Assembly: GCA_026874595.1 (NCBI GenBank)
Contig: CM049316.1
Coordinates: 67,108,676 to 67,172,675 of the forward strand
DNA from: Sipunculus nudus
Lineage: Eukaryota > Annelida > Sipuncula > Golfingiida > Sipunculidae
Direction of reading: 5' to 3'
Length of the DNA: 64,000 nt
This document shows, piece by piece, positions 8,817 to 53,495 of this stretch (the stretch's first letter is position 1; each line of letters opens with the position of its first letter). The notes beneath the pieces were generated by a model that did not search any database, had not been told where the DNA came from, and saw only the letters and a list, made by a program, of their open reading frames with translations. Position numbers and translations under genes: made by a program.

Positions 8817-9017
8817 TCATGACTCATCTACTATTGTTCCGTTTTCAAAGGCCTGCGCTGAGAGATCATCATTGTCGCCATTTCCTTGGTCACCTGATTC
8901 CGTGGCCTCTTGTTCATCTTCCTCCATCTTGTCAACTTTCTTATCATCATCTTCAAGTAGTGCCTCCTCGTCCTGGAGTTCTTTGGACTTGTTCTTCTTA
9001 CTGGTTGTCCCGTTTGT
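8817..9017 (-). CDS. coding exon 7: acidic C-terminal tail and stop
   Basis: 201 nt encoding residues 314-379 and TGA at 8817-8819. The acceptor is TTTCATGCAG at 9018. The tail starts Lys-rich (SKKNKSKE) and becomes strongly acidic (EDDDKK, MEEDEQE, DNDD), ending TIVDES. Acidic tails of this kind end hnRNP C proteins. No membrane segment or folded domain is evident. It joins exon 6 in phase 0. Confidence 0.85.
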   Translation of the reverse strand, partial: TNGTTSKKNKSKELQDEEALLEDDDKKVDKMEEDEQEATESGDQGNGDNDDLSAQAFENGTIVDES

Positions 9018-15000: not shown

Positions 15001-18000
15001 ATACATGATTCAAACAAAAATGTGAAATCTCCGTATAAACTGTAGATGTTTGCTCTAACATTGAAACTACAGATTGTTATCACTATGGGCTGTAAATTCT
15101 AAATAATGGCCTTATTATTTCATCCGCAGGGGTTTCAAATTTCCGATATTCCAATCATTGGAAAGATCGGCCATAAATGAACAATAATTTCTTCTTGGGT
15201 CCCTGCTCACTTGGAAAGGGTTTTGCACACATATTATAAAATAAATTAATTCTTAAACTAGATGTGTCGGTAAGACACGAATGCCCCCGCCTGGGGCAAA
15301 TCTGTCATATCGTCAAAAATAGGTTAACTGGGACGAAACGCGAATTCGACCTGTAAGTGGTCATTATGCGCCCACAGACCAAACACTGGGCCAGTATCTG
15401 TAAGCATTGCATTGCGAAATTAGAATATTAGCAAAAGCTGGTAATCAGTTATAAATTTAAATTATAGAGGTATGTACCATGTTTTATAACAATCCACCAA
15501 ATGCTTCCTGAGAAATATCCCCCTAAGTTTTTTTTCCTATACTAAGCTCTGTGACCTTGAAAAGTAGGTCAAGACCACCCATCTTTGAACCTGACCAAGA
15601 TTTTGTAAATATGATGCAAAAGCACTGAAGTAATGAAGTTCCTTAGTTGAATACCTTTGGAGATAGCCTGCACAAAGGCCAAAATTGTAAAATCCGATAA
15701 AATTTCATTAAAAAATCAGAAATTGCAGGTGACACCACCAAAATTGTGCAGAACGTACAGACCATCAGTCCCAATGATCATAGTAAGTTTTGTGAAAATC
15801 CACACAATGGTTCCTGAGATATAAGCTTCTGAGTGTTTTTCTATAATCAGCTCTAAAATGTAGAAAAATGGGTCAAGGTCACCCATCTTCGAACTTGACC
15901 GAGATTTTATCGATATACATCTTCACTGATGAAATAAAATTCCAACGGTGAATCCTTTTAGAGATATCCCGCTCACAAGGTAAAAGATAGCAGACGTGGA
16001 ACGAACGGACGGACGGACGGACACCCGACAGACAGATGGACGGATAGACGGACAGCTTGGGTGACAACAATAGCCCATCAGCCTATGAGCTGAAGGCTAA
16101 AAAAGGCTGTACATGTACATTTGTCATAAAAATTTATATTTTCATGAAATTTTCTATGTTTCGGATCCGTAAAACAATCAAAAGAAGGTCAACCAGGACG
16201 AAACGTGAACTCAAACTGTAACTGGTCATTATCTGCATACACACCAAAAATCAGGCCAATATCTGCAGGCATTGCGAAAAAAAGTCCGTACATGTGTTTT
16301 GTCATGAAAATTTATATTTTTCATGAAATTTTCAAAAGTTAAGGAGCCTTAAATGGTCAAAAGTAGGTCAACCGGGAGGAAACCCGAACTCCATCTGTAA
16401 CTGGTCAATATCTGCATACACACCAAAAATCAGGCCAATATCTGCAGGCATTGCGAAAAAAGTCCGTACATGTGTATTTGTCATGAAAATTTCTATTTTT
16501 CATGAAATTTTCTAAGTTAGGGAGCAGTAAAACAATCAAAAGAAGGTCAACTGGGAGGAAACCCTAACTCGATCTGTAACTGGTCAATATCTGCATACAC
16601 ACCAAAAATCAGGCCAATATCTGAAAGCATCGCGAAAAAAAGTCTGTACATGTGTATTTGTCATGAAAATTTCTATTTTTCATGAGTTAAGGAGCCGTAA
16701 AACGTTCCAAAGTAGGTCAACCGGGACGCAAAGCGAACTCGATCTGTAACTGGTCATTATCTGCCCACACACCAAAAATCAGGCCAATATCTGCAGGCAT
16801 TGCGAAAAAAAGTCCGTACATGTGTATTTGTCATGAAAATTTCTATTTTTCATGAAATTTTCTAAGTTTAGGAGCTGTAAAACGGTCAAGAGTAGGTCAA
16901 CCAGGAGGAAACGCGAACTCGATCTGTAACTGGTCATTATCTGCCCACAAACCAAAAATCAGGCCAATATCTACAGGCATTGGGAAAAAAAGTCCGTACA
17001 ACTGTTTGATTTCGGAAGGACGGAAGGACGGAATGACGGACATGGGTAAAACTATATGCCCCGGCCACTTTGTGGCGGGGGCATAAAAATAGTTGTACTC
17101 TGTGTAGGTCTTTTTGTATGGTAAACTCGCCAACCTCAAGAAGTGCAAAATCTCTGCAGAACCATGATATCTCAGATAATGAGAGCCTTGACAGGAGCTG
17201 TTATGATTCTTTGGTTTCCCTTTGACATCACTATACCAAGTCAAATATTGTGAATGTAAAATCAGATCCCTGTATCCATAAATTTACAATTATTGATAAC
17301 CCAATGGAAAGACTGCGTGAAACTGTTTGAGCTTTGAGGAGCAACTACAGGTTGCTGTAATCTGGGATTTTAGCCCTGCGTGCTCCTTAAGCGTAATTTT
17401 GATAGAACATATAAACCAAATGCCACACAAGCCCAAGGCAGGACACAAGACTGGCACCGATCTCAGTGACAAGATCCAGACAATCCAGAGAGCAGACTTT
17501 GAGCAAATGTTAAAACAAGCAATCATAGTTTTCTTCATCAGCACCCAATGGAAAGTGACATCCGTCATTCAGAATGAGGTCTCGTAGCTTAACAGGCAGG
17601 TGCCATCAACGGTGAAAGGTCATTGGCAGGAAATAAGCTGAATGGCATATTCATTGGCTTATCATTTGTATATCAATTTGTTCTATGGTTTAGAAATGAG
17701 AGTTTGACTATGCTTATTCACATTTCAGCTCTAAATTATAATACATGTTTTGTATCAGGTACATACTGTCACTGACTTCATTTTCACGAGGTTAAATATT
17801 CACAATAATCACGTATTTAGCATGGGTTTTATTTACGTGATTTACCATAGTTTCTTACCACAGTGTTCATAACCATTTTTATATCAATTACCTAATGTGT
17901 AATCAAAATCTGAACAAGAGGCACAAGGAGCTAAGGGAACACTGAACAGTTGGAAATTCTTCATGCAATAGTACTACATATACAAAAGTATTGCTATTAT

Positions 18001-20106
18001 TTAAATTATCAATGTTTGAAGGAAGGGTAACAAAAATGTATGCTTAATATTGATCCTACCAGCACAATATACATGAGATGCCACTGAAGCTAAAGAATAA
18101 ATTACTGTCCATCTGTGCAGATGTGATGTCTAATTCATGAAGGCTCTATTTTCTATATATTTTCCGGAAACCCTTGTGAACAAAAAGACCACCACATTAT
18201 CAAATCATGAGGAAAATATTGTGATACATACAACAAAGTTAGATAATGTATCACTTGCATCAGTATGTGTCTGTGAAGCCTCACCTTAGCATTCACCTTA
18301 GCAGTCCTTTGTGTTCTAGGGTCCACATAGATGACAGCACCATGACCATTTTGACAATGACGACACAGATCCCAACAGGTGTCGAACACTGCGTTACATG
18401 TAGCACAGGTCCACTGGTCAGGTTCAGGAAAATCTGTCAAACATTTGAAATGATGTTTAAGTATAAATAAACTAAATGTTTATTCCTGTCAATCAAGGTA
18501 CATTTCTATCCGCCCCATACACAGAACAGAATTCAGCTTTTACCCTTTAATTATCCAGATTGGGATAAATTTGAAACTTTTTATTTTTACATGGTAATAT
18601 CTCATTCTGTTTACATTGTATCTTTAAAAAATTTTCTGCATTTACTAGAGGGAAGGTTTCAGTAAACAGAAATATTTAGAACTGAAAATAAATGTACACT
18701 TTTTTATTAGGAAACTTTGGCCAGATAGCAATTACAAATGGTTCAGAGTGACCCTCTCAGCAGTTAAAGGTAACTTTACTGGTCAAAGTGAACAGGAAAT
18801 AATAAACTCAAGTGAATGGTGACATCACAGTGGATTTTATTCAGCATGGAGAAGCCACCTTTTTCACAGTATTGAATGATCAAGGACTGCAACCCAGTGG
18901 TATCATTTATAAGAACTTGAACATACAATACATCTGAATATATATCACACCATGATCAAGCTATGCCCACCTGCACAATAGATAGGTGGCGCTAACAGTA
19001 CAGTCTCATGGCCTCATAACAGATGGAAGAGTTCAGGTCCCAACTGTATAGAGGCAATGTAAATGGTTCATTCTTTGGAGCTAAATAAAAGTTAACGCAT
19101 AATAGGGCAAGAATGGCTTGAGTTACCTTCAGGTACCTTTAAAACACCTTTATTCTCACCTGATTTCGGTACATGGCACTTGCATGTGAAGCGGAGAATA
19201 CACGGATGTCGCTTGTGAGCCTCCATGTGCTCCATGTCAGGGAACTGCTGTTTGCAATTTCCACATATCAAAATATCAGGTGTATCTGAAAAACATGTAA
19301 CAACTTATAATTCATCAACAGAATCTACAGACAAATAATATATATTATTTTTTTTTCTATAGGTACTAACTTTCCCCTGTGGAAACTGCACGAGTATTGT
19401 TTTGATACCGTTAATCACAATATAGATTTCCTGAAGGGGTTTTGTCACTGTAATCTTACTAGCAAGATCTTGTAATGGTAATGTCACAGGTAATTATTGT
19501 GGATGTAAAATTACTTGTAATATTTTGTAACTGTAATGTTATATATAGCTAAAGATGGTAATGATTTTAACACTGGCAATATCTCATACTCTCACACTGT
19601 AATGTTGCCAGCAATATTATTCTATATTCTAACAAGCAATGTCTTGTAACATTAAAGTTACTGGAAATCTCATGGTTGTTATGTTACTTTTGATATCTGG
19701 TGAATGTTTACAATGTTTATTGTGATATCTCATGAGTGTAATTAATGCTGCCGATATCTCATACATGTAACCTAACTGACAATATTTTGTGACTGCAGCT
19801 TTAAAGAAGTAAATTGTGACTGTAACCTTATTTACAGTATCTAGTGACTGTACCCTGTGCTGTGATACACTGAACGAGCACAACTTACGGTACTTCGTGA
19901 CTGTCACAGGTTTGGGCTGCTGGGTGGCTGCTGCTGTTGGAGCTGACCCTGCTGGGAAGCCTGATTTCCCCCTCTTCTGTGTAGAGGGGTTTTGCGGTTT
20001 CTGAGGCTGGATATTGGGGCGTGACCGCTTCATCCCCGACATCCCTCCACCCATACGGTTCATCTGTCCGATGTTCTGAGGCATTTGGAGTGAACCACCA
20101 GACCTG

Positions 20107-20191
<85 letters not shown>

Positions 20192-26100: not shown

Positions 26101-29100
26101 GTGTACCATTGGTATTCTGAAGTCATCTAGCTGAGTTCTAAACTGAACTGGATTCCTTGAACACTTTTACAGACAAATTATGCATACCACTGAATCTAAA
26201 GAATAAATAATTCAGCATGCTATTTTATCTTAAATAATATATCCTTCAGCATTCATGTGTGTGTGAGTGTGTGAACTCTCAGGTGTGTCTGAGTACACTT
26301 TATCAAATCAAAGTCCTGATAATAATTAATCAGTTCACTCAGTATTCACTGGTTTTACCTTGGTCTCCTATTCAAGACATAAACTTTTAAGGAACACAAA
26401 TATTCAGTTGCAATTCTACATATCCACATAGACATCCCTAACAGACCTATACAAATACATTATAAAACAAATCATTATTGTCTTTATGCCTGGTGACCCT
26501 GAGAATATAAAAAAAACATTTATTAAACAAGCCTTTATCCCGTGCTCCTAATCTATGACAGCAGGGGCACCTGGGATAGTAAACAATTTGCTCGTTGGTT
26601 ATTTTTATACTGATAGGGTCATGCCAGTTGCTTCTTGCATGGAAGAATTGATTATCAAGATCAGGTCACCAGGTAAAATGCAATAAAACCGGAACTCTTG
26701 GGTCTCTTGTCTGTTGAGGATCCACGAGGTCACGCGAAAGAGGAATTAGTCCCGTGTTTCTTTGTTAGTGTTTACAGCCATGTAGCCGAGCCATGAAGAA
26801 GAGAAAAAAACCTTGTATTTGCCATGCCCAGCTAATTTTCAGCTTTGATCATATGCTGAATACTAAATTGCCACAAGCAGTAAAGGCAACACACAGTCGC
26901 TCGCAAATATGCAAAGATAAAGGCAGCGGTACTTGTGTAAAATCACAAGTTATTTTTGCTAACTCATATCAGTCTTTAATATGACTGCAGATGTCTTTCC
27001 CACCCTTTTGCCGTAAATGTCCCCAGCATTCCAGTGGATATGCTTTGCCATGAGGGACAACATACTGGCCACTATGTAACAACTGGAGAATTGCAAATTG
27101 TCTATTTATACCCATGGGGACAGTGCGTCCTAATCTACAGAACTCCAGTCCTATTTTGTAATGGATGTTCACTGCCCCACTGGCGATGTCCAATAAAACA
27201 TCAATCCATCCAGTAGCCAGTGGCACTTTCCAGTGATCCCGACGTTGATCTGAATTGGTCTTTCATGATGGCAAACACTACAGCTTTTACTTGACAGAGA
27301 CCAGCTTTTCGTCAGCCCAGCCAATGCATAAATACATATTAAATTCATGATAATGAAAGCCATATTAACGTGACAGTGTGACATACACAGAAGTCTCTGC
27401 CAGTATTGATGGCTGCAAACGAGAGAGAGACAGGACCCATTGGTGCTGGCATGATCTGTTTAAAATAGAAGCTGAGGCAGATGGATAGATATGTCATTAT
27501 TAAAGAGTCTGAGAGGAATCTAACCAGGAAAAAGGTAGAATATTCATAAACATGTACACCAAGCAGGGATGGATCAAGGATTTAGGAAAGGGGGAGGTGG
27601 TCCAACCAAGGAGGACTAATGACAAAGCCTAAATAAAGGTCCCCAGATCCAGAAAAGGGGGTCCAGGCCGCAAAAATTGGTCTGAACCCCTTATAAAAAG
27701 GTTCCGGATGGCTGAAAAGGGAGGGAGTCCAAACCACGTGGACCAGCTTCTGCCAAGACAAAGGCACATGTTCAATTCAGTATATGAATGACAAACTATT
27801 GAAACTAAGAATTCACAGTGTATCCCAACTAAATGATAACTTCCTAGCACACAGTAACTGTTTTTTTTGCCACATCCTTACAAGAAACTATTGCCACTGA
27901 CCAATTATAACAACAATAAAAAACAAGTGACCCAGGGGTCATGACGCTCAGCTGACCAAGAAGACACTGACAAAAGTAATTTTATCATCTGAATGTCAAA
28001 TCTGAATGAAATACTTTTTCCAAACTTGACCTTTTGTATAAAATCATCCAATATTCATTGGGGTACTATGGAGCTCTGTAGCATGATGAAGGATATGAGT
28101 AACAGACACCTATTTTCAAGGTTTACAAGATGACTTTTCAGGGGTCTCCCAGCATGTCAAAAAATAAAATTCTAGGTCCAGTTATTATGATTTGTGCCCT
28201 GTTAACAGATGACCAAATGTTTATTCTGGGGGGTATTTCAAAGCTGCATAGGATGAAGGATATGGGTAACAGAGATGTAATTTCAGGTGCACAAGGAGAC
28301 TTTTCAGGGGCCTCCCAGCATATCAAGAAAGGAGATTCTTGGTCAAGTCACTATAATTTGTGCTCTGTTAACAGATGACCAAATCTTTATTCTGGGGAGT
28401 ACTTCGGAGCCCCATAGCATGAAGGATATGGGTAACAGAGACCTAATTTCAGATTTCCAAAGAGACTTTCCAAAGGCCTCCCTGCATGTCAAGAATGAAG
28501 ATTCTAGGTCCAGTCATTATGATTTGTGCCCTGTTAATATATGACCAGATCTTTATTCTGGGGGGTACTTCAGAGCCCCATAGCTCACAGAATATGGGTA
28601 ATAGGGACCTTATTTAGGGTTTCCATGTAGACCTTTTATGGGCTTCCCTGGAGGTGAGGACAGAAGATTCTAGGTCCAGTCATTATGATTTGTGCCCTGT
28701 TTACAGATGACCAAATGTTTAAAGATCACAAAAGTAGAGAAAAAAAATTGTAAAAAATAAAAAAAATATAGGTGGCGCCACCAATCTCCAGAAATTGATG
28801 AAACACTCCATGATCAATATCCATGCAAAGAATCATGGTGGTTAATGCATTAGTTGTTCAGATACTTGAGCTTTTGTATTAAATTTTGCATTATTCTGGG
28901 GGGTACTTTAGAACCCCATAGCTCGAAGAATGTAGGTCACAGTGACCTAATTTCAGGTTTACAAGGAGAATCTCCATAGACCGCCCAGGATGTCAAGTAA
29001 GAAGATTCCAGGTCTAGCGGTTACGATTTGTGCCCTGTTAACAGACAGACGCCTGGATGGCCGGACGGATGACGGACAAAAGGTGATCCCTATAGCTCAG

Positions 29101-35100: not shown

Positions 35101-38100
35101 TAAAAATGAACTGAAAAATGCCATAGGTGACTGCATGGTGTTATTTGGAATATGTGACATTCTACCCATCGATACAAGATTCTTATATCATCAGTAACTG
35201 CAAGTTAATTTCCTGTTATTATAAACTAACAAATTCCTTTTCTATTTTTCTTTAATTTGTTATTAAAAACCAATAAAAATTTATTAATTTATTGTTTATT
35301 GTTATGTTGTTGGTTAAAACTACTAGATGAGTTGGGTTGAACACCTGGATCAACTGTGGCTGGCCATAAGCTGCCTGGATTCTCCCCTCAAGCGTGCATA
35401 ATTTGATGAAAGGTCAACAAGGTCAACATACAGGTGACTCAAGAGGGGCTGGAGAGAGCCAAAGTCTGACAGGGTCTCATAAAAAACATTAATAAAAGCT
35501 ACACTATTTGGCAAATTTCTTTCAGCTTTCTAAACTAAAAAGCTGAAATCCTTATGTGTGCATGATTTGAAAATTATATCAACAGTGCTCACGGGAAACA
35601 AACGTGCCTTGGTCACAGTTGGGCAAAATTTAAGGTACTAATTTTATATTTATACTAATAACTTATAAAATTTGAAAAATTCAGAACTAATTTTGGGTAT
35701 TCAATTGAATCTTGATTAAATGATGTTAGATCCCTGACAAAAAAAAATCTCTAGCTTCAGCAATGCCCTTGTTAAGGGAGTAAATATATTTCTTGATTTT
35801 TTACAAAGTGCATTATGTTTGGGCCCATAACTTAAAAAAAATACACAATACTGACATCATTTCTGGCATGTGCATAGTGAATGTATAGAAAAATATGTAT
35901 ATTATATATGATCAAAGTCAGATCAGTGGTTTTGATATTAGGCAGTCTTAAAGTGTAACATTGGGTTTTTAATGGAAAAATGAAGTTTTTCATTAAACTC
36001 GAAGGAATTAAGTCCTAGTGACCAAATTCTTGGCATGGTAGGGGATTTTGGAGAAATCTAACTGTATGCCAAATTTAAGGAACTTACAGCTGAAGCTCGG
36101 GAGCTGAGCTCTAGCAAACTGCATAACACTAGCAATATGTGACATGGTGCTTGAAAACTTGAATAAAATCTACAGTTTTTGATCAACTGGTTTCAAATTT
36201 TTGGTGTTAACAGTTGAAATGCTAACAAAAACATGCTGTGAAAATTAAATCCACAGCAGTTACAGCAAAAAAACGTGCCATGGTCAAAGTTGGGCAAAAT
36301 TTAAGGTACCAATTTTTTATTTTTGCTAATATTTTTAAAAATTTAAAAGATTTTGATCTAATTTTGGGTATACAATTTAATTTTGATTAATAAAAGTAAT
36401 ATTACTGGAAAAAAAGTGCTTAGCTTTAACAAGTTTTGTGTTAAGTGATAAAATTTCTTTCCTGATTATTTACAAAATGCATTATGTTTGGGCCCATAAC
36501 TTTTTTAAATTAAATAATACAGACCTAATTTCTGGCATGTACATAGGAATTATATAGAGGATTATTTATAGGAAATATGAGGAAAAACAGATGAGTGGTT
36601 TTGATATTAGGCAGTCCTAAAGTGTGAAAATAGGTTTTTAATAAAAAATTGAGGTTTTTCCTTAATTTCTCAAAGGAATGAAGTCGCAAAGACCCAGTTT
36701 TCGGCTTGGTAGGAGATCTTGGGGACTTCTAACATTATGCCGAAATTTGGATTCCTAGGTCTTACGGTTTCAAAACGTGCCACATCTACGGACGGACGGA
36801 CGGAGAGACGGACGGCAACGGACAATGGACCACGACTATAGCTCAGATGACTTATAGTCAGCTGAGCTAAAAAGTAGAAAACACATTTCTGTTAAAATCA
36901 GTTTTATTCTTACATGATAGTACTAAACCCATCACATACATGTAAGTTAAAACAAGCACACCTCATATTTACATATTAGTTCTTAGCACATATGACTCAA
37001 TTTTAAAGATTTCTAGATGTGAACATTTTTAATCTATAATTCAGTGAAGATAAACATGTATGACAGACTGACTAACACATCTGACAAGTTGTCAGTGAGC
37101 TTCTGACATTTATACATGTTATGTTCAACACTTTTTGTCAGCTTCATATTTTATTCTGATATTCACATATTTCTATTTTGTATTAGTGTACTATTTATTT
37201 CTTTTTTTAAACTTGAACAGTTCAGAAAGATGATCAAAGTTTCTTTATGAAAAAGAGAAATAAGTATGAAAAAAATTAATAGAGTTAAGTTGGCATCAAT
37301 AATTCCCATTCTTCCCGGGAAGAATGAGAATTCTCATTTTTCCCAGGTTTGAATTTCAAAACTGAATTCCAGTCTCTCCCGGGAAAAATGAGAATTCCCA
37401 ATTTCCCGGGAGAGACTGGAATTCTCATTTTTTCCGGGAAGAATAAGAATTCTCATTCTTCCGGGAAGAATGGGAATTCCTTCATACCATCTCTGGATTC
37501 TCATCTTTCCCCGGGAAAAATCAGAATTCTAATTTTTCCCGGGAGGATTCCGGATCATATGTCAAGGGAAGAATGAGAATCTGGGAAGATCCGGAATCCT
37601 CCCGGGAAAAATCAGAATTCTCATTTTTCCTCTGATAAATGAGAATTCTGATTTTTCCCGGGAATAATGGGAATTCCCATTCTTCCCGGGGAAAAATGAG
37701 AATCATTTCATACTATGATTTGATTCTGATTTTTCCCGGGAAGAATGAGAATTCTGATTTTTCCCGGGAAAAACCAGAATTCTTATTTTTCCCAGCCAGC
37801 TCCAGTTTGTTAAATGATATCCTTTTAATTGTTAAGGTGGGTTAAGTCTGCATATGTTACTACAGTATAATAATCAAACTTAAATGTTATTAACTGACCA
37901 TTGCTAAAAGGACAGTAACATTTTTGTTATGAAAAAAAGGAGAAAACACATTCCTGTTAAAATCAGTTTTATTTTCTTTTATTCATTTTGTTGAGATGAG
38001 CAGACGTGAGTTCCTAATTACTTATCCTGCCTACTGGACTACTTTCAATACAATCTTTGATCACAATTAATGCATCACAATCAATACTGACTGATGTTTA

Positions 38101-38283
38101 TTGATCAAAGGGGTCAGATCACCAAACACACAAACAGCTTCATAATACTTTATGTCAACAAGTGTAGTTATTCCTAAGCACTTAAAACATAAATTATTTT
38201 TTTTTATTCTCATGGAACCTCATCTCAGAAACCTGACCTAGCTATTATTATAATATTATAACCAAAAATTAAGGAACTTGTTT

Positions 38284-38357
<74 letters not shown>

Positions 38358-41300
38358 TTTTTGTCAGCTGCATATTTTATTCACATATTTCTATTTTGTG
38401 TGAGTGTACTATTGATCTTTTAACACCTGAACAGTTAAGAATTAATGTGAAAGAAAGATGATCAAAGTTTCTTTCTGATAAAAAGAAATAAGTTTAAAAA
38501 AAATTAAAAGATTTAAGTTTGCATCAATAATTCCCATTCTTCCCGGGAAGAATGAGAATTCTCATTTTTACCAGGTTTGAATTTCAAAACTGAATTCCAA
38601 TCTTTCCTGGGAAAAAAGAGAATTCTCAATTTTCCCAGGAGAGACTGGAATTCTCATTTGTCCCGGGAAGAATAGGAATCCCTTCACACCATCTCTGGAT
38701 TCTGATTTCTCCTGGGAAAAATCAGAATTCTCATTTTTCCCGGGAGGATTCTGGATCTTCCCGGATTCTCATTCTTCCCTCGACATATATATATGCAACA
38801 GGGTTCCTGCAAATTTTTTCATATTATTTTTTTTTTATTTTCAATAATATAATTTCATATTTTCAAACTTTGGTCATCTTTTGCACCGCCTCCTCTACAC
38901 ATCAATGCCACTGTCTGACCCTACCATATAACTCTTTTCTTATCACCTCTTTCAAAAGCATAAGCCTTAGTCGACAAAATAAAGATATCTTTATAAACAG
39001 ATGCTCTAATTCCCTTAGTATGCCTCAGTGTAAAACTGAAAGTCTGCCATTTTTTTCCATAGGAATTTTATAAAATCAGCATATTTCAAGTGCTTTGAAA
39101 AAAACATGCAATTTCAAATAGTTTTAAACATGTGGGATCTTTCAGCAGGGCCATGCATGATTTAGAACACCTCTCTCAAACCCTGGGCCAGTGGTCACTG
39201 CAGGTCCTCCTCACAACACAGGTTGGATATGATTCCCTGTACAAGAAGGTTGATACAACTGTTTTCTTTCTTTAACATGGACTTGTATGTTCAGTGTAAG
39301 AGATAATATATGCTTAATGAAAAATGCATTCTGGTGTTTAGTGGTTTAGAACATCTGCCGAGCATTCATGCTGAAGTAACGAAAATTTTTACTGGGCACA
39401 GATTTAACACATGACAAAATCAAATTCATCACTTGCATGCTTGGAAAAAAGTGGGTTTGAGTGAAAATTCATTAGTAGATCTTGGACTGAAGAACAAATC
39501 TGCATTGCTGATTGTCTGTAGGGACTGTCCAGGGTAATCAGATTGGATAAATTAGGCAATGGAGATAATTAGTTTGGCAACAAACTGAACAACAGCATCC
39601 CTTGATACTTCTGACATGCACCTGTCAGGTGCCACCTGATGAAAATACATCTCCTGTAAGGAGTAAGATGCATCAGGTAGACTTTGAACAGCTCATTACT
39701 CACGAGCTGTTTGGGAGGCAATCAGTTACGCATTGTGTATTGAGAATCAGATTCTGAATCTTTTGTGGTCTTAATTGTGTGATTTTCGTGCACAGAATTT
39801 TGTATTTGTCACCAGAATTTTTTTACTTCCGCCAAGGGGCGGAGGTCATGTTATTGCTGGCGTTGGTTTGTCTGTTACAAAAATTATTCTATATAGTTAT
39901 AAACAGATTTTAATGAAATTTTCAGGATTGCCCGGCAAATGATACAAGGAACTATTGATTAAATTTTGGGGGTGCCCTGATTTACCATCTGGATCCAGGA
40001 TTTTTTTTTTAAATGCTGCATTTTGACAATGCCATTTATGGGGGTAATGAGCTGCCTTGGTGGAGGTCTGTGCTCTCTGAGTGCTTTTCTAGTGTAATAT
40101 TTTACTTTTAAATTTAAGGATGGATAATGTGTTAAAGTTTGAAACGTATACTGGTGACAATGTTATACAGCGAGAACATGTTTAATACATAATACCAATT
40201 ACAATGAAATTCATACATAAATGCTTAATACCTGCGAGTTAATAAATATCTAATACTTAAACGGAAGCCAACTAGCTGCAATAAAACTGAATTTTCTTAA
40301 ATATGTTCATATTTTATGAAAAGGGTGCACTGGCAGATATATAAGTAAAGTACCGCCAAGTTGATTGTGCTGTGCCTGTATCAACATTAAATGCTAGAAA
40401 CAGCCGACTTCTTCTTTAATAAATAATTCATTACTTTCTCTTTTAAACACAGTTTCTATGAGTATGTATGTAATCTATGAACAAATATGAAAGGATGGAC
40501 TCTAAGATTTCTAAATTTCTTAAATTTCATATGCTCAAAGGCTCAAGTACACAGTTATGTATCTATGTATGCAGCCACACATAGTGGGCATAAAATACTT
40601 ATGTTTGTATATAACATGGCTATGGACAATTTTTAACAATTTTTAGGAGTTTAGCAAGAGGGGCAAGAGAATTTTGACAGCTGAGTCCTGACACATCATT
40701 ACAATGCAGTTACTTCAGATTACCAAAGTAAATCCTTCTTCAATCATCCACAAATGGAGAAAATTGCCACTCATATTAAACGCAATTCCTTTTCCAGATT
40801 TCCATTATATCCTGAGGTAATTGTATCCCAATATCTTTGTTACAACAGTGGTTGGATTTCAGAGAGACAGAGTCTCTTTGATCTGACAACATTAATGCGC
40901 TCCATGGTCAAGTGCTGGTTTGAATGATGTAATGTAAAAATTCTGCAGCCTGTAAATTTAGAATGATAATGATGAAAAGCCGTGTTTGAAGTGACACTGT
41001 TTGGCCAGGTCTGCAGGGATGTTGTTAACGTTCAAAGGCAGCTGGTTTCACACGTGTAAAAACGATTTTTGGTTTTTGTGACGCAATCACTGCCATGTGT
41101 ACTGTATTGGGCATTATTATGACCTCGCTTCATTCTACTCTAATTACCAAGCAAAGTAGCTCCCTCAACGGCTGTTAATTAATCCACTACAAATGATCAA
41201 TCACATTAATAATAGTTCCTGTACAAAGGCTACTTAATTACAAAAATAAAATCTCTTATCTTCTTGTTCAGGAATCCCAACAGTAAACCGGAAGCCTAAA

Positions 41301-44300
41301 AGGAACATTTTCAAGACATGAGCACGGAAACAGAGTGACCACTGAAGGGAAGCCAGCACAGGAACTGACACCAAATAAAATACTACAGAACATGTTACTT
41401 TTGTGAAACTTATGCAAATTAACATGAGTTGACATGGTGTTTTTTCTCTTTTTTATACAAATATTGAAAGTCTTAAGGAAATGTGTAAATTTCATCTATG
41501 AGAAAAATGACACCAGATGAATGGTAAAGCTGGTATTGCACTCATTTGCTTAATACAAACCCATGAATTACATAAAATCGGGAGCAATTTTCATGAGCAT
41601 GTATCTTTCACAAATCATGGTACATTTGCAAAATTTGCAAAAAATGCATGCTAGCAAAATTTTCTGGTTATACAGTAGCTGACCAATAGAGGGGTTATGT
41701 GGACGGTACAATAGTTCATTACCCCAGAATCTAACCTTTCTGCCCTTATTTCACAGTTCAGAAAACAACCTGCAGGTGGCTCTGCCTACTCTATGATGAT
41801 AAAGGTAACCGCCTGATAATGGGTTAAGATGTTTGTGTTCCAGGTTAAACATGATCTTACAATACCATATGGTTTTAAGTTTCTCCTATAAGTGTACACC
41901 ACAAATGTTGCCAATAAGTGTTTTTTTTTTTTTTTACTTTAATCTGAATCAAGAAGATTGATTTTTTGTAATTGTTTCTGATTCTTGATATTATATAGTA
42001 TAAGAAATCTCCCAAATAAGCTCAGAAATGTAAAAATTCAGTAAAAATATCAAAATAATACAAGTCATAGTCATTGGTCTGACATTACAGGATACCTTAT
42101 TTTCCACTATTTTCCCATGTGACTAATGTGTTATTGAACCTGAGAACAATATACTTCCAATACAATGGCATTCTCCCCAAGACACCGACAAGTGGCATTT
42201 TGTCAATGGCTACGGAGTCTGGTCCGGTTTAAATCAAATCAGGAAACAAAGTCTGAAGGGGTTCCACCATCATATCAATAGATTTCAAGGCTGCCGACCT
42301 GTCTTTGTTAAAATGAACCTACTGAAAGCTGAAAGCCACCAAAAGAATTTATGTGTTAAGCTTAAAAGCTAAAACATTTGTTAAGTAGTGAATATACCTG
42401 TTTTAAGGCCAAGCATCGTACTCACTGCTTGTCTGCTTACTATGCATGCACAGACTGTCGAGTTTAAACTTTTATTTATTTCACATGGATTGTACAAAAA
42501 GTTGATATAACTAATGCTAGGCCTGGATGCAGGCGTCCAGTAGAATAATATTAGAGGTAGAGGAAACCAAACGATGCAGAGATATCTACTGGCCTTGAAC
42601 TAGCCGTGAATACAAGACTCAACAGGCTTTTATGGTAAGTTTAACTTGAGAAGTGATACAAGCCATACAGAGGAATGCATTGCAGTTGTCTTCCATCATG
42701 TTGCATCAATTAATATTATGCTAAAAAGCCCATAATCTTAACATGCTATGAGATATAAATTAACACAAAAGAATAAAAATGAACTCACAACACAAACATG
42801 TGTTCAGTTAACAGTGCTCACTTTAAAATAACCCACCACTGGCCACTTTTATCATATAAACCTGATGACACAAACATGTATGGTTACTATGATAAAATGA
42901 TCTATTGAGTCTTTATGCAAGTACTGACTTAATGCCTCTGCCAGAACAGTAATTCTTATACCCTTTTATGTCTGTTTGTGTGTTTGTTCACAAGATAACT
43001 CGCACATTCCTGAATGGAATCTCATAAATTTCCAGAGCCTCTCGAGAACGGGCCACTGAAGAATTTATTAGATTTTGGTGTGAATCTGGCACATGATCAG
43101 GATTCACCAACATCATCATATATTCACAAAATGGAATATTCACAAATGTTGATATGGGAATAAGGACCAAATAATGACCTGAACATGGTGGAGGCTTGCA
43201 CTCCTTTAAATGCAGATTTAAGCATATTTTACAGAACTACAGAAGAGACATAAAATACTCTATCAATAATCAATCATCATTTTCTTTCAATCATCAAATA
43301 TGATTTTTACACCCAATCCCAACCACTTATTATTACCACGTCAAAATTTTCTGAATTCACAACAAAAATAACATTTACTGACCATTGTTCCTGCATTGGA
43401 TTCGGCCACTGTTCTCCCTGTGACAGAGTGCGCTTCCTCATCGTGCCCTGACCCATCATGCTCGGGCCCATCATGCTCGGCATGTTCATGTTCATATTCA
43501 TACTCATGTTCATATTCATGTTTGGTTTGCTGATGAGTCTATTGTGTATCTTTGGTTCAGCTGCCAGATTCACATCTGTAAAGAAGAAGTTTATTACATA
43601 ATTTTCTATTGAATAAGTACATACATAAAACTCTGTCATCTCATTTTTATCCAGGTCATACTGAAAACTGAAATTTCCTTGATTGAAGACTTGCATGAAT
43701 TGATACCTGACAGAGGTGTTAAATTCCCCTACTTGATATTGGCATCAGTAGCTGTTCTTTGATATGAGAAAGATGTACAAAAATCCTGCACCTGGATAAG
43801 TTAAAATTTCAAACCACTTTTTATGTCAAGACCTACATCCAGGGTTGGAGTGATTGTATTGTAAATGTAGTTAATTCTATTATGATTAATTTAAAACTGT
43901 TTACTTACAATTACAGTGGAACCTGTCTTAAACACCACCTGTCTTATAAGACCACCTGTCTATCAAGACCACCCTTGAGTATAACAAAAGCATTCATATT
44001 AGGTAAAACTGACCCATCGAAGAGGACCACCTGTGAATATAGACCACTTTTGGCAAGTCCCATGGGTCATCTTATTAATAAGGTTTCACTGTACCTCAAA
44101 TATTAACGTAACTGATCACAACAGCGGTTAATTCGGCATGTAATCATGATAACTTTCAAGATAACAAGTTTTATATAATTTACAAATTACACAAAAATGC
44201 ATGTTCTTCATTTACAGGTCAACAAATAAGATAAAGTCACTGCACCGCCACACTGACAGTTTGACAAAAGATTTTTTCCGCTACACTTAAAAGTATCTCA

Positions 44301-50300: not shown

Positions 50301-53300
50301 GTGAATACACAAAGCAGTAGGCTGTGAAGTCTGTATTTGAGTCGTGACATAAAACATTTGCAGAAAAGCACTGCAAAGGGCATCATATTGCATCAGTACT
50401 GTGGTAAACAGCCAGTAATCTTAACATTAGACTATGAGTGATGAATAAATATAAAAGAATACACATGAGCTCATCTCTATGGTAACAGTGCAGTGTCTGT
50501 GTGAGATATAAGTTCACTATTGTCCAGTGAGCTGTGTGGAACATGCTTGTGCATGTGGAGGGATTCACAATATGCTGAGATAAAACCGAACTTTCTCACA
50601 CGTTGTAGCTGTTGTTAAAAAGTACACATACATATCTAACAGTAACATTGGTTCTGGTATATTTCAAGCTGTTCAAAATGATGAAATATCAGAATTCTCA
50701 TGGAGTTTAACAGAGCAGCCATTGTTATAAGATGTAAAGATGCTGGTCAGAGACACTCTTAAATGTTGGAGGGCTGAAACAGCACACACTCATTTATACA
50801 ATAAAAGATCAGAATGATTCTGATGCTGTTCAAGTAGTAACTAACCAATCAGGTTTAACATTTACTCATTCCTGGGAAACAATAATTATAAATCAAATGT
50901 AGCCTTCCATGGGATGATGACTGTGTCATTGATGAACTGATAATGCAAAAGAAATTAGACCAACTGATACAATATTTGTCTTTGTATTATGACTGATCAG
51001 TGCAAAAAGCGTCATTACATTCCAGGTAATAGTGTATTCATTTATCTTATTTTAAGCGGCCTATTAGACTTCTATTATAAACATGTGATGGGCTGATGAT
51101 CGATTATAATTGATGATTGGTTGACTGATGGACACGATTTGATCATCGATCTTGCAGAGAAATAATCGATCACAAAAATGTTCACAAAACTTATGCTTTG
51201 TGATGAAATGTATGCTTTCATGAAAGTCTCTAGAAAACTTGCAAAGTCTCTAGAAAATTTTGTGTAATTTCATAAACAAGGAACCTTATAACACACACAC
51301 ACAGGATATAAAATCAGCTATATATTAGCAATTATGAAGGTTTTATATCAGTTGAGAAGAATTATAGGTCTGTATGTGGTAACAAATTCCATACTCCTAC
51401 ACAACCAATAAATTCTGATTTCCAGTTCGTAGAGATCTACTGATTTTTACAGTGCAATCATGAAATTACAACTGATTCTCAAAACTTATATTTACTTTAG
51501 ACCTTTGGACCTTTTATAAAAACAGGCCAGAAAACTATGATCCTGTAGTAATAGGCTATTCATTTTGTTTATATTTACATGTTTATTGAGTGTGTTGGGG
51601 GGGGGGGGCAAAATACATTCATGAAGGACATCTGGTAGTGATTCAGTGATTCAGATGAACCAGAGTTTAGCAAAGGGCTATCTGCAACAAGTGATCTTTC
51701 ATCTTCTACACAACTTCAACACACCACCTCAGATTACATAATTTTTCTCTTTGTCAATAATGTTGTGTTTACAAACAGCTTGTTGATAAACAAGCTCATA
51801 CAGCCTTCACAGAGGTGTTATACTTACTTTTCTTACCAGGAATTAGCTAGAGTCCATAAGCATGAACACACAGAGAAAGCCAGATATCACATAAATTCTA
51901 TTTAAAAGGTAGGTAAATAGATCACTTTAAAAGGCAAGTATAATAAATCTGCTGCAGATATCACTTTTTATAGAAGGACTCTTTGAATAAGTATGCACTA
52001 TGTTTTTGTTAAACTTCTGATCTCTACCATCACTGTAAGAGATTTCTGTTTTTTTTTTATCATCTGCTGGCTCCAATCCCTTTGCAGTTTTTCACTGCCC
52101 CTGTATATATATATGTTTAAAGCACAGACACTGTTAACATCACTTGTTGGTTTGGCAGGAAAAGGAACCTCTTTCTCTTCTTTACTGTACATTTGGGGCA
52201 ATTTACATCAAGCATGACTGATGATTAATTTCAAATGATGAACCACCTATCATACAGAAACAACATACACAAGATGTCTGCCCATGAATTGACCCAATCT
52301 TCAAAGAGTATCCCTAAACTAGCTCAGGTGATTGACAGGTTTAATTGATAACCAATCCTTGGAGGGCTTGCTCAATCCATTTGGTGTCCATAACAGATCT
52401 GCTTTCAGTCCCTCTGCCAAACAGAATTTCTAATGCGTGATGGTGCCAGAGGGGCTATCTTCTTCCCATCTGATCAGTTGCTAGATTCATCAATATTTCC
52501 AAATGAAGGTTTGAAGGTTAAAATACTTTCTCTTGGAAGTTTGTCTGATTTCTCAAGTTTTTATGTGGCAAAACACAGTAATGTTGAAGATTCAGCCTCA
52601 AAGCATTAATCTTATATAAAATATGGAATGAGCAACAAAAATCTACATCAGCAACTTCACCAAATATATTTAGCGGGTATATACATACAACTGTATTATA
52701 TACCATTCTTCAATTTTCAAACATAAAACTGACTAAAATATTTCTTTTACACCATTTCAGTTTTTTTTGCTTCACTTGAAAAAGATGTTACAGTTGTATA
52801 AATATTCAAAATGCAAATTCAGTTTTGGTTAGTACATACTAAAACTCTTGAAAACTGTATATTAAAATTTTAATCAACTTTACCAAAATATTCAAACTCG
52901 ACTATTTAAACAGCATAAAATTAAAATGCCTCCTCTGCAAGTCAGAACTCGCAGCTGCTTTTCGCTATGGAACTGGTATCTGACAGAACTACAAATGTTA
53001 CATGTATCAACATCTGAAGCAAAAACAAAAAGTGTCATCATCCTATGTGCCCCCCTCTCAATCCAGCCCTGTTTCAACTACCTGTACACATAGAGTGAAG
53101 CTCGTTCATGCTTATAAAATAAGTTAACTAAGTAAGACTGAGTTATTCCATACTGATTGACAATCACTCCTTAGTCCTATGGGAATCACCACACCATGTT
53201 TCTTAATTTATGCAGCCTTCTGCTTGTGTACATACTAACCTATCACTTGATTGGCGTAGTTCTTCCCGTCTTCACAAGACACAGCTCGACGGGCGTCAGA

Positions 53301-53495
53301 GGGAATCTGGTACTGGACGAACGCGTACCCTTTGTGCATTGATATACCTGTGATGTTTCCATAACGAGCGAAGATCACTTCAACCTGCTCTTTGGTCAAC
53401 TGGAACGTGTTCAAATTACCAACAAACACTCGAGACTGTATTGACATTGGGTCTGTTGCATTGGTGCAACTTCCCACTCTTGGCATCATATCCAT
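8817..53495 (-). CDS. hnRNP C/RALY-like RRM protein with two BCL11-like zinc fingers (six coding exons)
   Basis: Joining 53495-53240, 43575-43383, 20103-19889, 19285-19160, 18433-18285 and 9017-8817 on the minus strand gives an uninterrupted 379-residue protein; every intron is GT-AG and in phase. Residues about 20-94 form an RRM with RNP2 VFVGNLN and RNP1 KGYAFVQY, ending in DVNLAAEPK, a signature of the hnRNP C/RALY family of nuclear pre-mRNA-binding proteins. Residues 104-127 are Met/Asn-rich. Residues 175-196 are basic (KRSRP, QKRGK), a likely nuclear signal. A C2HC finger uses C229, C232, H245 and C250; a C2H2 finger uses C273, C276, H289 and H294. Residues 314-379 form an acidic Lys/Glu/Asp tail, as in hnRNP C. 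I see no leucine zipper like that of hnRNP C. A nuclear RNA-binding role is inferred. The ATG at 53495 has a good context (GCCATGG) and begins the hnRNP C-like N terminus. An extra small in-phase exon cannot be excluded. Confidence 0.88.
10428..11301. mobile_element. 874-bp TIR element nested in A1
   Basis: Ends CAGGGATGTGC and GCACATCCCTG are exact inverted repeats. The 5-bp GATCA is duplicated at 10423-10427 and 11302-11306. The A2 copy has the uninterrupted site AATGATCATAAGT near 34893, which confirms both edges. GC-rich motifs of the type GTGCCGGGCGG recur near both ends. No transposase frame is seen. The terminal text is hAT-like, but hAT elements normally make 8-bp duplications, so the superfamily is left open. 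Confidence 0.85.
11694..13312 (+). repeat. A1 core unit, first tandem copy (1.6 kb)
   Basis: Runs from TTTATTGTTTATTGTTATG to the hairpin GTCAGCTGAGCTAAAAA. It is repeated directly at 13313-14930 with high identity. Inside are two related subunits of roughly 650-700 bp, recognised by GCCATGG...GGCAAAATTTAA, TTTGGGCCCATAAC and TTAGGCAGTC. An ACGG-type microsatellite is at 13223-13263. Confidence 0.8.
13313..14930 (+). repeat. A1 core unit, second tandem copy
   Basis: Direct repeat of 11694-13312, with the same internal subunits, an ACGG-type run near 14845-14880 and the 3' hairpin at 14893-14926. A2 has one such unit (35284-36873), so A1 gained the extra unit after or during amplification. 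Confidence 0.8.
15421..16100 (+). mobile_element. C-family pearl-like element (C1) nested in B
   Basis: It interrupts a B core unit: GCATTGCGAAA stops at 15419 and AAAGGCTGTACATG resumes at 16101, where other B units read GCGAAAAAAAGTCCGTACATG. C1 has two core-like units, an ACGG-type run (about 16001-16054) and a 3' hairpin TAGCCCATCAGC...GCTGAAGGCTA then A's. It matches C2 (32482-33109). The 5' end is not clearly defined and may be truncated. Confidence 0.7.
16140..17000 (+). repeat. tandem core array of B element
   Basis: Five units of 170-180 bp, marked by AGGCCAATAT at 16253, 16432, 16611, 16781 and 16961. A sixth, split unit lies at 15311-15420. Each unit contains GTCAACCGGGA, CTGTAACTGGTCA, and GCATTGCGAAAAAAAGTC followed by TACATG. 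Confidence 0.85.
17333..17587 (+). repeat. interspersed repeat fragment related to 20366
   Basis: GAGGAGCAACTACAGGTTGC and CCTGCGTGCTCCTTAAGC closely match GAGCAGCTGCAGGTTGC and CCTGTGCGCTCCTTAAGC at about 20369-20420, over roughly 60 bp. An open frame of 86 codons covers it on the plus strand but matches no family I recognise. It is probably a degraded retroelement piece. Confidence 0.4.
18285..18433 (-). CDS. coding exon 6: C2H2 zinc finger
   Basis: 149 nt encoding D264 (last two bases) to K313. The finger is C-x2-C-x12-H-x4-H (C273, C276, H289, H294). The stretch WTCATCNAVF...RHCQNGHGAVIYV resembles the BCL11 finger that reads YTCTTCKQPF...QHAQNTHG, including the Tyr/Trp before the first Cys and the hydrophobic run after the last His. 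The acceptor is GTTTGACAG. Two donors 12 nt apart, AAG|GTGAGG at 18285 and AAG|GTGAAT at 18297, would both stay in frame. Confidence 0.88.
18434..19159 (-). other. intron 5
   Basis: 726 bp between exons 5 and 6, GTGAGA...GACAG on the minus strand. The sequence is AT-rich and unique-looking. A sequence with a weak B-box-like GAGTTCAGGTCCC is present near 19030, but no A box at the right distance supports a tRNA or SINE. Confidence 0.85.
19160..19285 (-). CDS. coding exon 5: C2HC zinc finger
   Basis: 126 nt encoding H222 (last two bases) to S263 plus one base of D264. The finger is C-x2-C-x12-H-x4-C (C229, C232, H245, C250) with core text CGNCKQQFP and AHKRHPC. Spacing and residues resemble the N-terminal CCHC finger of BCL11A/B, from family knowledge. 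A second short CKC follows at 256-258. The acceptor is TTTTTCAG and the donor CAG|GTGAGA. Both ends are phase 1, so the exon could be skipped without loss of frame. Confidence 0.87.
19286..19888 (-). other. intron 4
   Basis: 603 bp between exons 4 and 5, GTAAGT...TTTTTCAG on the minus strand. The plus-strand text shows a weak recurring pattern of TGTAATGTTA / GTAATATCT-like phrases every 30-40 bp over about 19440-19860, suggesting an old degraded minisatellite. Confidence 0.85.
19889..20103 (-). CDS. coding exon 4: basic Gly/Gln/Pro-rich linker
   Basis: 215 nt encoding residues 150 (last base) to 221 plus one base of H222. The composition is Gly, Met, Gln, Pro and Lys, with basic clusters KRSRP (175-179) and QKRGK (192-196) that may act as nuclear localisation signals. 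No folded domain is evident. The donor is ACC|GTAAGT. The acceptor is unusual: instead of a pyrimidine tract, a (TA)n run of about 80 bp ends in TTTACAG at the exon. The length is not a multiple of three, so skipping would shift the frame. Confidence 0.85.
20108..20186. repeat. (TA)n microsatellite abutting the exon 4 splice acceptor
   Basis: About 38 TA units ending 5 bases from the exon 4 boundary at 20103. On the transcribed strand it occupies the place of the polypyrimidine tract and branch region. Confidence 0.95.
20366..20722 (+). other. CpG-richer open block with a plus-strand donor, identity unknown
   Basis: A 105-codon plus-strand frame (20406-20723) lies in a block richer in GC and CpG than its surroundings, followed by TTTACAAG|GTAAGG at about 20719, a good splice donor. 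Its Pro/Ser-rich translation matches nothing I know. Its first 60 bp are shared with 17333-17395, so a retroelement fragment is more likely than an antisense gene. Confidence 0.3.
20795..20860 (-). repeat. tRNA-derived SINE-like fragment
   Basis: The minus strand reads GAGCTAAAGCTCCTCAGTTT then GATCCCTGC, resembling the anticodon-arm-to-B-box part of tRNA-derived SINEs (GGTTCGATCCC). The A-box side is not clear, so the call is weak. Confidence 0.3.
20900..26680. other. repeat-poor part of intron 3
   Basis: Almost 6 kb with no copy of the families found elsewhere, only short homopolymers. The sequence is AT-rich with scattered TAATTA-type homeodomain-like words. No exon could be supported. 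It might hold regulatory sequence, but nothing here proves it. Confidence 0.4.
27567..27745 (+). repeat. interspersed repeat, family I
   Basis: Begins GGATGGATCAAGGATTTAGG and contains AAGGGGGAGGTGGTCCAACC and AGGTCCCCAGATCC. A second, inverted copy lies at about 63228-63352, where the reverse complement reads GGATCAGATCCAGGATTTTT and continues AAAGGGG, then GTCCAACCCAGG. It is a dispersed repeat of unknown class. Confidence 0.5.
27923..30105 (+). mobile_element. F-family pearl-like element
   Basis: Starts ACAAGTGACCCAGGGGTCAT (hairpin TGACC/GGTCA), then CGCTCAGCTG at 27945-27954. It ends with the hairpin TAGCTCAG...CTGAGCT (30071-30100), then A's. An internal copy of the 3' end, with its own ACGG-type run, lies at 29056-29127. 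Tandem core units carry TTCTGGGGGGTACTTCGGAG and CAGGTGGCGCCACCA. The end motifs match family A while the cores differ. It has no coding capacity. Confidence 0.75.
28771..29826 (+). repeat. F core array with perfect GGTGGCGCCACC palindromes
   Basis: The 12-bp palindrome occurs at 28771, 29141, 29478 and 29815, spaced 370, 337 and 337 bp. The spacing marks the core period. Text around each is conserved (AAAATACAG before; CAGAAACTGATGA after). Confidence 0.9.
31034..32481 (+). mobile_element. D-family pearl-like element, copy D1
   Basis: Starts ACTAGAATACGG with the perfect hairpin GTAGTCG(ACAAG)CGACTAC at 31046-31064. Core units of about 300 bp hold GCAGGTGGCGCCACCA, CGGTCAAACGGTT, GAGATATGAG and CAGACAAACAGA. 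It ends with TTCCGCCCAGCGGTTAC, then a GCGGCGGCGGTGGCGG run and GAAAACATAG. D2 at 47622-48745 has the same ends. No protein-like frame is conserved between the two. Confidence 0.7.
32482..33109 (+). mobile_element. C-family element, copy C2, fused to the end of D1
   Basis: Matches the cores of C1 (CAGACCATCAGTCCC, ATCAGCTCTAAAA, GAGATATCCCGCTC) in two units, one with GGTGGCGCCACC at 32762-32773. It ends with an ACGG-type run (33025-33060) and the hairpin TAGCCCATCAGC...GGGCTGAGGGCTA. Its 5' part begins abruptly after D1, so it is probably truncated. Confidence 0.7.
34262..36873 (+). mobile_element. A-family pearl-like element, copy A2, inserted in a G element
   Basis: A complete 2.6-kb copy: ACAAGGGACC at 34262, CGCTCAGCTG at 34284-34293, left part to about 35283, one core unit 35284-36873, an ACGG run at about 36788-36825, and the 3' hairpin with CAGCTGAGCT at 36859-36868. 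The right G copy (around 37915-37960) gives the empty site, so both edges are known to within an A-run. No longer target duplication is visible. Confidence 0.85.
37300..37800. repeat. CCCGGG/GAATTC palindrome array, G family
   Basis: Dense alternation of TTCCCGGGAA-type and GAGAATTCTC-type palindromes at the junction of the two G copies. In both strands this yields misleading open frames with repeating FPGK/REE-like text. The array can form large hairpins. Confidence 0.9.
38292..38344. repeat. (AT)n microsatellite inside the right G copy
   Basis: About 25 AT units; absent from the corresponding place in the left copy. Confidence 0.95.
39826..40095 (+). repeat. interspersed repeat, family J
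   Basis: Begins ACTTCCGCCAAGGGGCGGAG, contains ATGAAATTTTCAGGATTG and GGATCCAGGATTTTTT, and ends GGTGGAGGTCTGTGCTCTCT then GAGTGCTTTTCTAGT. This end is common in repeats of many marine animals, from general knowledge. Its class is not certain. Confidence 0.6.
42960..43205 (+). repeat. diverged family J repeat
   Basis: Contains GTGTGTTTGTTCACAAGATA then ACTCGCACA, TTAGATTTTGGTGTGAATCT, and a final GGTGGAGGCTTGCACTCCTT. It lies just downstream (minus sense) of exon 3. Confidence 0.45.
43383..43575 (-). CDS. coding exon 3: RRM end and Met/Asn repeat
   Basis: 193 nt encoding residues 86-149 plus two bases of W150. It opens with DVNLAAEPK, the family signature at the end of the hnRNP C/RALY RRM. 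A hexanucleotide-type coding repeat follows, giving NMNMNMSMNMNMNM (104-117), then MMG repeats and RKR. The acceptor is TTCTTTACAG at 43576. Two donors are visible: ATG|GTCAGT at 43383 and TCA|GTAAAT three codon-bases further. Only the first keeps the frame into exon 4, so I chose it. Confidence 0.88.
43912..44093. mobile_element. pogo/Tigger-like MITE
   Basis: TACAGTGGAACCTGTCTTAA at the left and TTAATAAGGTTTCACTGTA at the right form imperfect TIRs starting CAGTG next to TA. The interior has AAGACCACCTGTC and GAGGACCACCTGTG phrases typical of this MITE group. It is 182 bp and non-coding. Confidence 0.7.
44818..45352 (-). repeat. family J repeat, minus orientation
   Basis: The reverse complement starts ACCTCTGCCAGAAAGTATCA, continues with CGTTGGTTGGTTTCAGTTGG and AAAGTTATTTACAGATTTTA then ATGGAATTTTG, and ends GCAGAGGTCTGTGTCCTCTG then GGAGTGCTT. 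It is the same end as at 40045-40090. Confidence 0.5.
47622..48745 (+). mobile_element. D-family pearl-like element, copy D2
   Basis: Same 5' hairpin as D1 (GTAGTCG 47634-47640 / CGACTAC 47646-47652) and same 3' text (TTCCGCCCAGCGGTTAC, GCGGCGGCGG, GAAAACATAG). The cores are more decayed: the palindrome appears as GGTGGCCCCACC and GGTGGCACCACC. It has fewer core units than D1. Confidence 0.7.
51597..51608. repeat. poly-G run
   Basis: Twelve consecutive G's, a simple low-complexity tract. Confidence 0.9.
53240..53495 (-). CDS. coding exon 2: start codon and RRM
   Basis: Encodes residues 1-85 plus one base of codon 86. The exon itself starts at 53514, after a pyrimidine-rich acceptor ending TTTTTCAG at 53515, so 53496-53514 is 5' UTR. 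The RRM lies here almost whole: RNP2 VFVGNLN at residues 23-29 and RNP1 KGYAFVQY at 55-62. TNATDPMSIQSRVF matches the region just before the RRM in hnRNP C, which supports this start. The donor is G|GTTAGT. The base G carried over makes GAT (Asp) with the next exon. Confidence 0.93.

Follow-up and report, generated by a model that had tools for sequence, protein, structure and literature searches.

The particles that form on nascent transcripts contain hnRNP C as a core component, and passages of PMC8994388 describe the vertebrate protein as having one RRM per chain, a zipper-like helix adjoining a basic stretch, and a tetramer that measures RNA length. According to the same passages, hnRNP C needs the zipper-like domain both for tetramers and for strong RNA binding, and PSKRQRV is its nuclear localization signal (PMC8994388). 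Fly CG42458, a homologue of hnRNP C, is paired with HNRNPC in an excerpted table of PMC10948934. For the transcription factor BCL11B, an excerpt of PMC8708588 reports that the isolated N-terminal CCHC finger forms tetramer-size complexes on elution, and cites the statement that this finger type favours protein contacts.

The window analyzed here, the whole 64-kb stretch of Sipunculus nudus DNA, encodes a protein that is best characterized by an hnRNP C-type RRM, followed by a C2HC finger of the wider BCL11-like kind and then, as second finger, one of BCL11 type. We read it as a genuine domain fusion, an hnRNP that would bind U tracts and that carries, in its oligomerization slot, zinc fingers through which it may oligomerize. 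The coding region runs on the minus strand from an ATG at 53495 to a TGA ending at 8817, the same start and stop that an earlier sequence-only reading had assigned. That reading's exon numbering is kept throughout, so that exons 2-7 are the six coding exons and exon 2 is the first of them (Table 1). Spliced in phase, the exons total 1140 nt and encode 379 residues, as originally proposed. GT-AG boundaries are present at 5/5 introns, which measure, from their coordinates, 9,664, 23,279, 603, 726 and 9,267 bases in 5' to 3' order. In frame 0 the joined sequence has a single, terminal stop; the alternative frames have 23 and 26. The window appears to hold one gene for a single protein, the joining of its six exons in one transcript being predicted from DNA. 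Acceptor-like TTTTTCAG lies 5' of the ATG, ending at 53515, and suggests a non-coding 5' UTR exon further upstream. Part of the exon-3 linker is made by a 6/12-bp tandem repeat at 43481-43522, and an Rfam scan of the window found nothing.

Table 1. Coding exons of the predicted gene in window coordinates.
Feature	Position	Strand	Content
Exon 2, first coding	53240..53495	-	start codon and most of the RRM (VFVGNLN, HKGYAFVQY), then phase-1 donor
Exon 3	43383..43575	-	final RRM strand (DVNLAAEPK), then Met/Asn/Gly/Gln-rich linker
Exon 4	19889..20103	-	Met/Gly-rich head, then KRSRP...TQKRGKSGF
Exon 5	19160..19285	-	126 nt, phase 1 at both ends; C2HC finger CGNCKQQFPDMEHMEAHKRHPC
Exon 6	18285..18433	-	phase 1 to 0; C2H2 finger WTCATCNAVFDTCWDLCRHCQNGHGAVIYV, assigned to BCL11 finger-1 type
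Exon 7, last coding	8817..9017	-	acidic tail and stop codon

Residues 9-97 find their best matches among solved structures in hnRNP C (2mxy, E 1.5e-29; 1wf2, E 1.8e-28) and RALY (1wf1, E 3.4e-26), followed by PUF60 at E 2.1e-9. These top three matches bear out the initial assignment of the RRM to the hnRNP C/RALY type, and the first of them excludes chance at the level of sequence. The domain shares with hnRNP C and RALY the short HKG(F/Y)AFVQY loop and the NLAAEPK end, and 51/85 aligned residues are identical to human hnRNP C.

Searched against its own genome (1,426,538,692 bases), the window RRM returned itself as the sole match at E<=0.001 (12/12 candidates scored). With the human hnRNP C RRM as query, the window came first at E 7.1e-21 and the next match followed at 5.7e-4 (14/14 candidates scored, E<=10). 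The gene is probably the animal's only one of hnRNP C/RALY type, as judged by a search that works exon by exon and scores the best candidates only, which a very divergent paralogue could escape. Among 150 RRM matches, 15 other RRM loci were inspected, 7 of them picked mostly for short loops, and none was of hnRNP C type. A segment at G000:C11:10919862-10920017 matches the first 52 of the 89 residues in the human hnRNP C RRM query at 42% (E 0.0037) and has one in-frame TGA; it is possibly a decayed hnRNP C-like copy or paralogue. Scans of viral contigs with the RRM, and of bacterial and archaeal contigs with 313 residues, yielded no relative, in line with an animal origin of the gene.

Exon 4 sits 603 bp from the C2HC exon, between the RRM and the fingers, and contains KRSRP and TQKRGKSGF, whose counterparts after the RRM of human hnRNP C would be KRQRV and SRRGKSGF. 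The match to human hnRNP C is weak, with RGKSGF reaching E 0.013 in a local blastp without composition correction and 1.2 in tblastn over the window, and KRSRP stands opposite KRQR in the MAFFT alignment only. The exon was first located by a search whose length was set by the previously proposed 379-residue total. A scan without a length assumption gave five phase-compatible, stop-free candidates between exons 3 and 5, among which exon 4 exceeded the rest in length (215 nt) and in GC content (0.57 versus 0.35-0.39); the other four, at the same splice-site threshold, all overlap and all end at 42398. Detection depends on the filter. With a looser donor filter there were 24 candidates, the three longest all starting at the exon-4 acceptor, and a stricter pyrimidine-tract acceptor filter missed the exon because this pyrimidine-poor acceptor is placed inside an (AT)n tract. 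The fraction of Met, Asn, Gly and Gln is 0.56 for the tail of exon 3 and 0.65 for the opening 26 residues of exon 4, compared with 0.21 elsewhere in the protein, so that a similar composition continues across the 23-kb intron.

These observations bear on a different account of the locus, in which two genes lie side by side: one hnRNP C-like, with exons 2-3 and further 3' exons that escaped detection, the other a small zinc-finger gene in which exons 4-7 follow a first exon of their own. Such an arrangement would accommodate the 23-kb distance between exons 3 and 4, the internal Met codons in exon 4 and the acceptor in a pyrimidine-poor (AT)n tract, but it would leave to coincidence the hnRNP C-like RGKSGF and KR-R of exon 4 (a weak likeness), the shared Met/Gly-rich composition of exons 3 and 4, the compatible phases at every junction and an exon 7 that encodes an acidic tail, as in hnRNP C. 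A further point against it is that at the same threshold just four other overlapping stop-free candidates exist, all ending at 42398 with a GC content of 0.35-0.39. Two adjacent genes strike us as improbable. The hnRNP C-like exon 4, the shared composition and the acidic last exon favour one gene, and from them we infer the link over the 23,279-base intron.

Downstream of the RRM the single predicted protein both resembles hnRNP C and departs from it. The two are alike in an acidic C-terminus and perhaps, on a weak match, in the KR-R and RGKSGF stretches after the RRM; Asp or Glu fills 22 of the last 55 residues, which agrees with the hnRNP C-like acidic tail noted at first, the alignment of the two tails resting on composition. 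Unlike hnRNP C, the window protein has a Met/Asn-rich linker and two zinc fingers between the basic stretch and the acidic tail. The human hnRNP C zipper (CLZ) gave a best tblastn match of E 1.7 against the 64-kb window, a search that an alternative exon with a zipper could escape if too divergent for tblastn, and a best blastp match of E 0.10 against the 379 residues, inside the acidic tail and not convincing as a zipper. The proposal that fingers replace the zipper region is consistent with this outcome, since no convincing CLZ match was found and the fingers occupy that position. Because the zipper was not found, we file the RRM only, and not the whole protein, as hnRNP C. By its sequence the protein is not BCL11, whose fingers 2-6 were not found in the window, and it appears to lack the CLZ, a defining trait of hnRNP C that was tested.

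As first described, a C2HC finger (exon 5) precedes a C2H2 finger (exon 6), and the second of these gives the clearer signal. Human BCL11A finger 1 matched the window at 18425-18321 by tblastn (45.7% over 35 residues, E 2.7e-8) and at E 1.25e-7 within a joined two-finger query. In that query the native linker was shortened and composition correction was off, which inflates the joint E of 1.5e-15; the single-finger values are relied on here. Against finger 1 of the genome's own BCL11, on C3, the second finger is 42.9% identical over 35 residues (E 5e-7 in 200 kb). It keeps the non-zinc residues of BCL11 finger 1 (TC-TC, W, QN-HG--IY). When it was shuffled 100,000 times with the zinc consensus preserved, none of the shuffles reached its score against human BCL11 finger 1 (observed 86, mean 18.7, SD 9.6), none its score against the genome's own BCL11 finger 1, and 61/100,000 its score against the corresponding finger of a second BCL11-like gene. 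Eight control fingers scored 1 to 35 against the second finger, compared with 86 for human finger 1; a ninth (C3_ZF2) was out of register and was excluded. Together, the tblastn E of 2.7e-8 and the shuffles exclude a chance resemblance in sequence for this finger.

Genome-wide, where a first look gave 6,381 zf-C2H2 candidates, the best non-self match of the finger pair was the genome's BCL11 finger, at E 0.00108 (11/11 candidates scored). The next match, C2:53924530 (E 0.026), was rejected as a chance stretch without finger cysteines, which makes the BCL11 margin at E 0.001 a modest one. Another match, C16:54762048 (E 1.2), contains a stop and was likewise rejected. Pfam zf-C2H2 gave no match of its own for the second finger; a phmmer search of solved structures with the finger pair returned 10 sequences at E<=10, all of them at 0.1 or above and BCL11A not among them; and phage records scanned with the second finger held no relative, as expected for an animal gene. 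On these sequence comparisons the second finger belongs with BCL11 finger 1, by a modest genome-wide margin, and does not fall in with generic C2H2 proteins, its best non-self match being BCL11 at E 0.001.

The first finger scored 19.2 bits (E 0.0013) on the Pfam model CCHC_BCL-11A (PF25491), whose cut-off is 27, compared with 54.6 bits for human BCL11 finger 0 and 49.6 and 51.1 for the two bona fide finger 0s of this genome; it was absent from the 16 matches of a genome search with that model. Human BCL11A finger 0 matched the window at 19277-19200 by tblastn with E 0.004 (0.025 with the joined query). From the second Cys to the His the finger spans 12 residues, where BCL11 finger 0 has 14, and its helix lacks ILIFI, a hydrophobic stretch present in BCL11 finger 0. 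Its closest genomic relative is TDIHICGTCQEQFHDIDGFVDHKRHGC, a C2HC finger at G000:C11:46677847-46677924 with 54% identity over 26 residues, the same spacing and a phase-1 acceptor, in a gene that may be E4F1-like. Pairwise scores were 83 for this relative, 59 for human BCL11A, and 59 and 43 for the genomic finger 0s; the relative itself reached 18.3 bits on the BCL11 CCHC model, and its 3-kb locus contained no finger-1 match better than E 0.067. Of the suggestion that both fingers resemble the N-terminal BCL11 pair, the half concerning the second finger holds, its best non-self match being BCL11, and the half concerning the first is not supported as put forward, given 19.2 bits against 27 and a closer relation to another C2HC gene. 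By sequence, the first finger is only BCL11-like and not demonstrably BCL11 finger 0; lacking ILIFI and being two residues shorter, it may not share the tetramer formation of BCL11 finger 0.

The genome has a BCL11 orthologue of its own at G000:C3:22.961-22.994 Mb, with finger 0, finger 1 and fingers 2-6, of which fingers 4-6 are 85% identical to the human sequence. Like the window gene, BCL11A/B and this orthologue have a C2HC finger followed by a C2H2 finger (TC-TC...W...QN-HG--IY), with a phase-1 intron before each. BCL11 fingers 2-6, present in the C3 orthologue, were not detected in the window (no tblastn match better than E 0.29), and the window's C2HC finger differs from that of BCL11 in being two residues shorter and below the Pfam cut-off. 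To our knowledge, BCL11 has no RRM.

A second BCL11-like gene lies on the window's own chromosome, ~62 Mb away (G000:C11:5401324-5415792). Its finger 0 exceeds the Pfam cut-off and is followed by a finger resembling finger 1 and by four more C2H2 fingers found by pattern; the gene may be a lineage-specific or an old BCL11 paralogue. It shares with the window gene finger 0, the finger-1-like finger and phase-1 introns, and differs in the further C2H2 fingers; no RRM match better than E 0.21 was found near it in the stretches examined.

As read from sequence, the window gene, the C3 BCL11 gene and the second BCL11-like gene all begin their finger-0 and finger-1 exons in phase 1, with the first Cys following a few residues later. 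The window's C2HC exon is symmetric (1-1), as the finger-0 exon of the second BCL11-like gene appears to be. Such phases would be left behind if exon shuffling had brought in the finger pair, or if the genes descend from the same forerunner, and are supportive of either. They are not decisive: introns in phase 1 are widespread, and the gene at C11:46.68 Mb, which shares its C2HC spacing with the window gene, also has a phase-1 acceptor.

The finger kinship has to be weighed against convergence, in which the gene would be single but its fingers ordinary C2H2 and C2HC fingers that came to resemble BCL11, with no BCL11 module captured. Retention of the non-zinc residues of BCL11 finger 1 in the second finger, at a score that 0/100,000 shuffles reach against either the human or the genome's BCL11, is hard to reconcile with that account, as are the standing of BCL11 as the best non-self match genome-wide and the agreement with BCL11 in finger order and phase-1 introns. 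Convergence would sit more easily with the first finger, whose 19.2 bits on the BCL11 CCHC model are about those of another genomic C2HC finger (18.3 bits), with the failure of phmmer to retrieve BCL11A among solved structures, with the lack of an own Pfam zf-C2H2 match for the second finger, and with the modest genome-wide margin (BCL11 at E 0.001, a chance match at 0.026). On balance, we judge it unlikely. The source of the captured finger exons, one of them symmetric (1-1), would most likely have been a gene for a BCL11-type transcription factor or an ancestor common to such genes.

Overall, we consider it likely that the window holds one hnRNP C/RALY-type gene, probably single-copy, in which two fingers, most likely captured, fill the zipper slot and would have an oligomerizing or docking role. 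The protein would reach the nucleus by its KR-R stretch, and its RRM would bind U-rich pre-mRNA. The fingers would then stand in for the zipper, offering a surface by which several copies associate or the RNP docks onto partners. With no zipper found, fingers in its place and an isolated BCL11B finger of tetramer size, the comparison points to an hnRNP that may gather copies or dock partners through zinc fingers. A literal transfer of the BCL11 tetramer mechanism is disfavoured, since the window protein does not keep the hydrophobic stretch of the finger-0 helix. Single-sequence models of the two finger exons were of low confidence (pLDDT 65.7 and 61.4), and the low-confidence exon-6 model did not have the strand-strand-helix order expected of a finger.

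C2H2 fingers often bind nucleic acid, and those of the window protein might form a second nucleic-acid-binding surface, for RNA or DNA, in place of an oligomerizing or docking one. We regard this as a tentative possibility, but there are only two fingers, dissimilar and in separate exons, with no TGEKP-type linker between them, and the CCHC type favours protein contacts according to the excerpt of PMC8708588. A contact surface for further copies or partners is the role we prefer for the fingers.

The fusion would amount to the transfer, by way of phase-1 exons, of a finger module from a transcription factor to a protein that packages RNA. An apparently sole hnRNP C-type gene with fingers in the zipper slot asks whether it is the tetramer, the zipper or the partner contact that is conserved. 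In a more far-reaching version, which we hold to be doubtful, the sole hnRNP C gene of this lineage, and perhaps ancestrally that of animals, oligomerizes on pre-mRNA through a finger module shared with BCL11 and not through a zipper. If that were true, vertebrate hnRNP C and RALY would have acquired their zipper as a substitute, and RNP assembly could be under the control of zinc or of BCL11-type partners. Among the open-licence matches listed, titles and abstract openings contained no description of such an RRM-finger fusion; the architecture may be annotated in sequence databases.

The window also contains several kinds of repeat. Diverged tandem arrays with periods of 166, 337 and 280 bases occupy 28085-30106 and 31067-32267 in the 23-kb intron, and GGTGGC(G/A)CCACC palindromes occur within the repeat units at 29122 and 31155. 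To both sides of the finger exons, at 15532-15986 and 32489-32947, ~300-450 bases recur at 79-98% identity, ~16.7-17 kb apart (families D8, D10, D11, D13). Short arrays with ~28-base units are scattered at 34042-34114, 37301-37793, 38592-38679 and 54572-54642, built around TTTTCCC(G/A)GGAA(G/A)AATGAGAATTC-like sequence, and probably belong to one dispersed repeat family.
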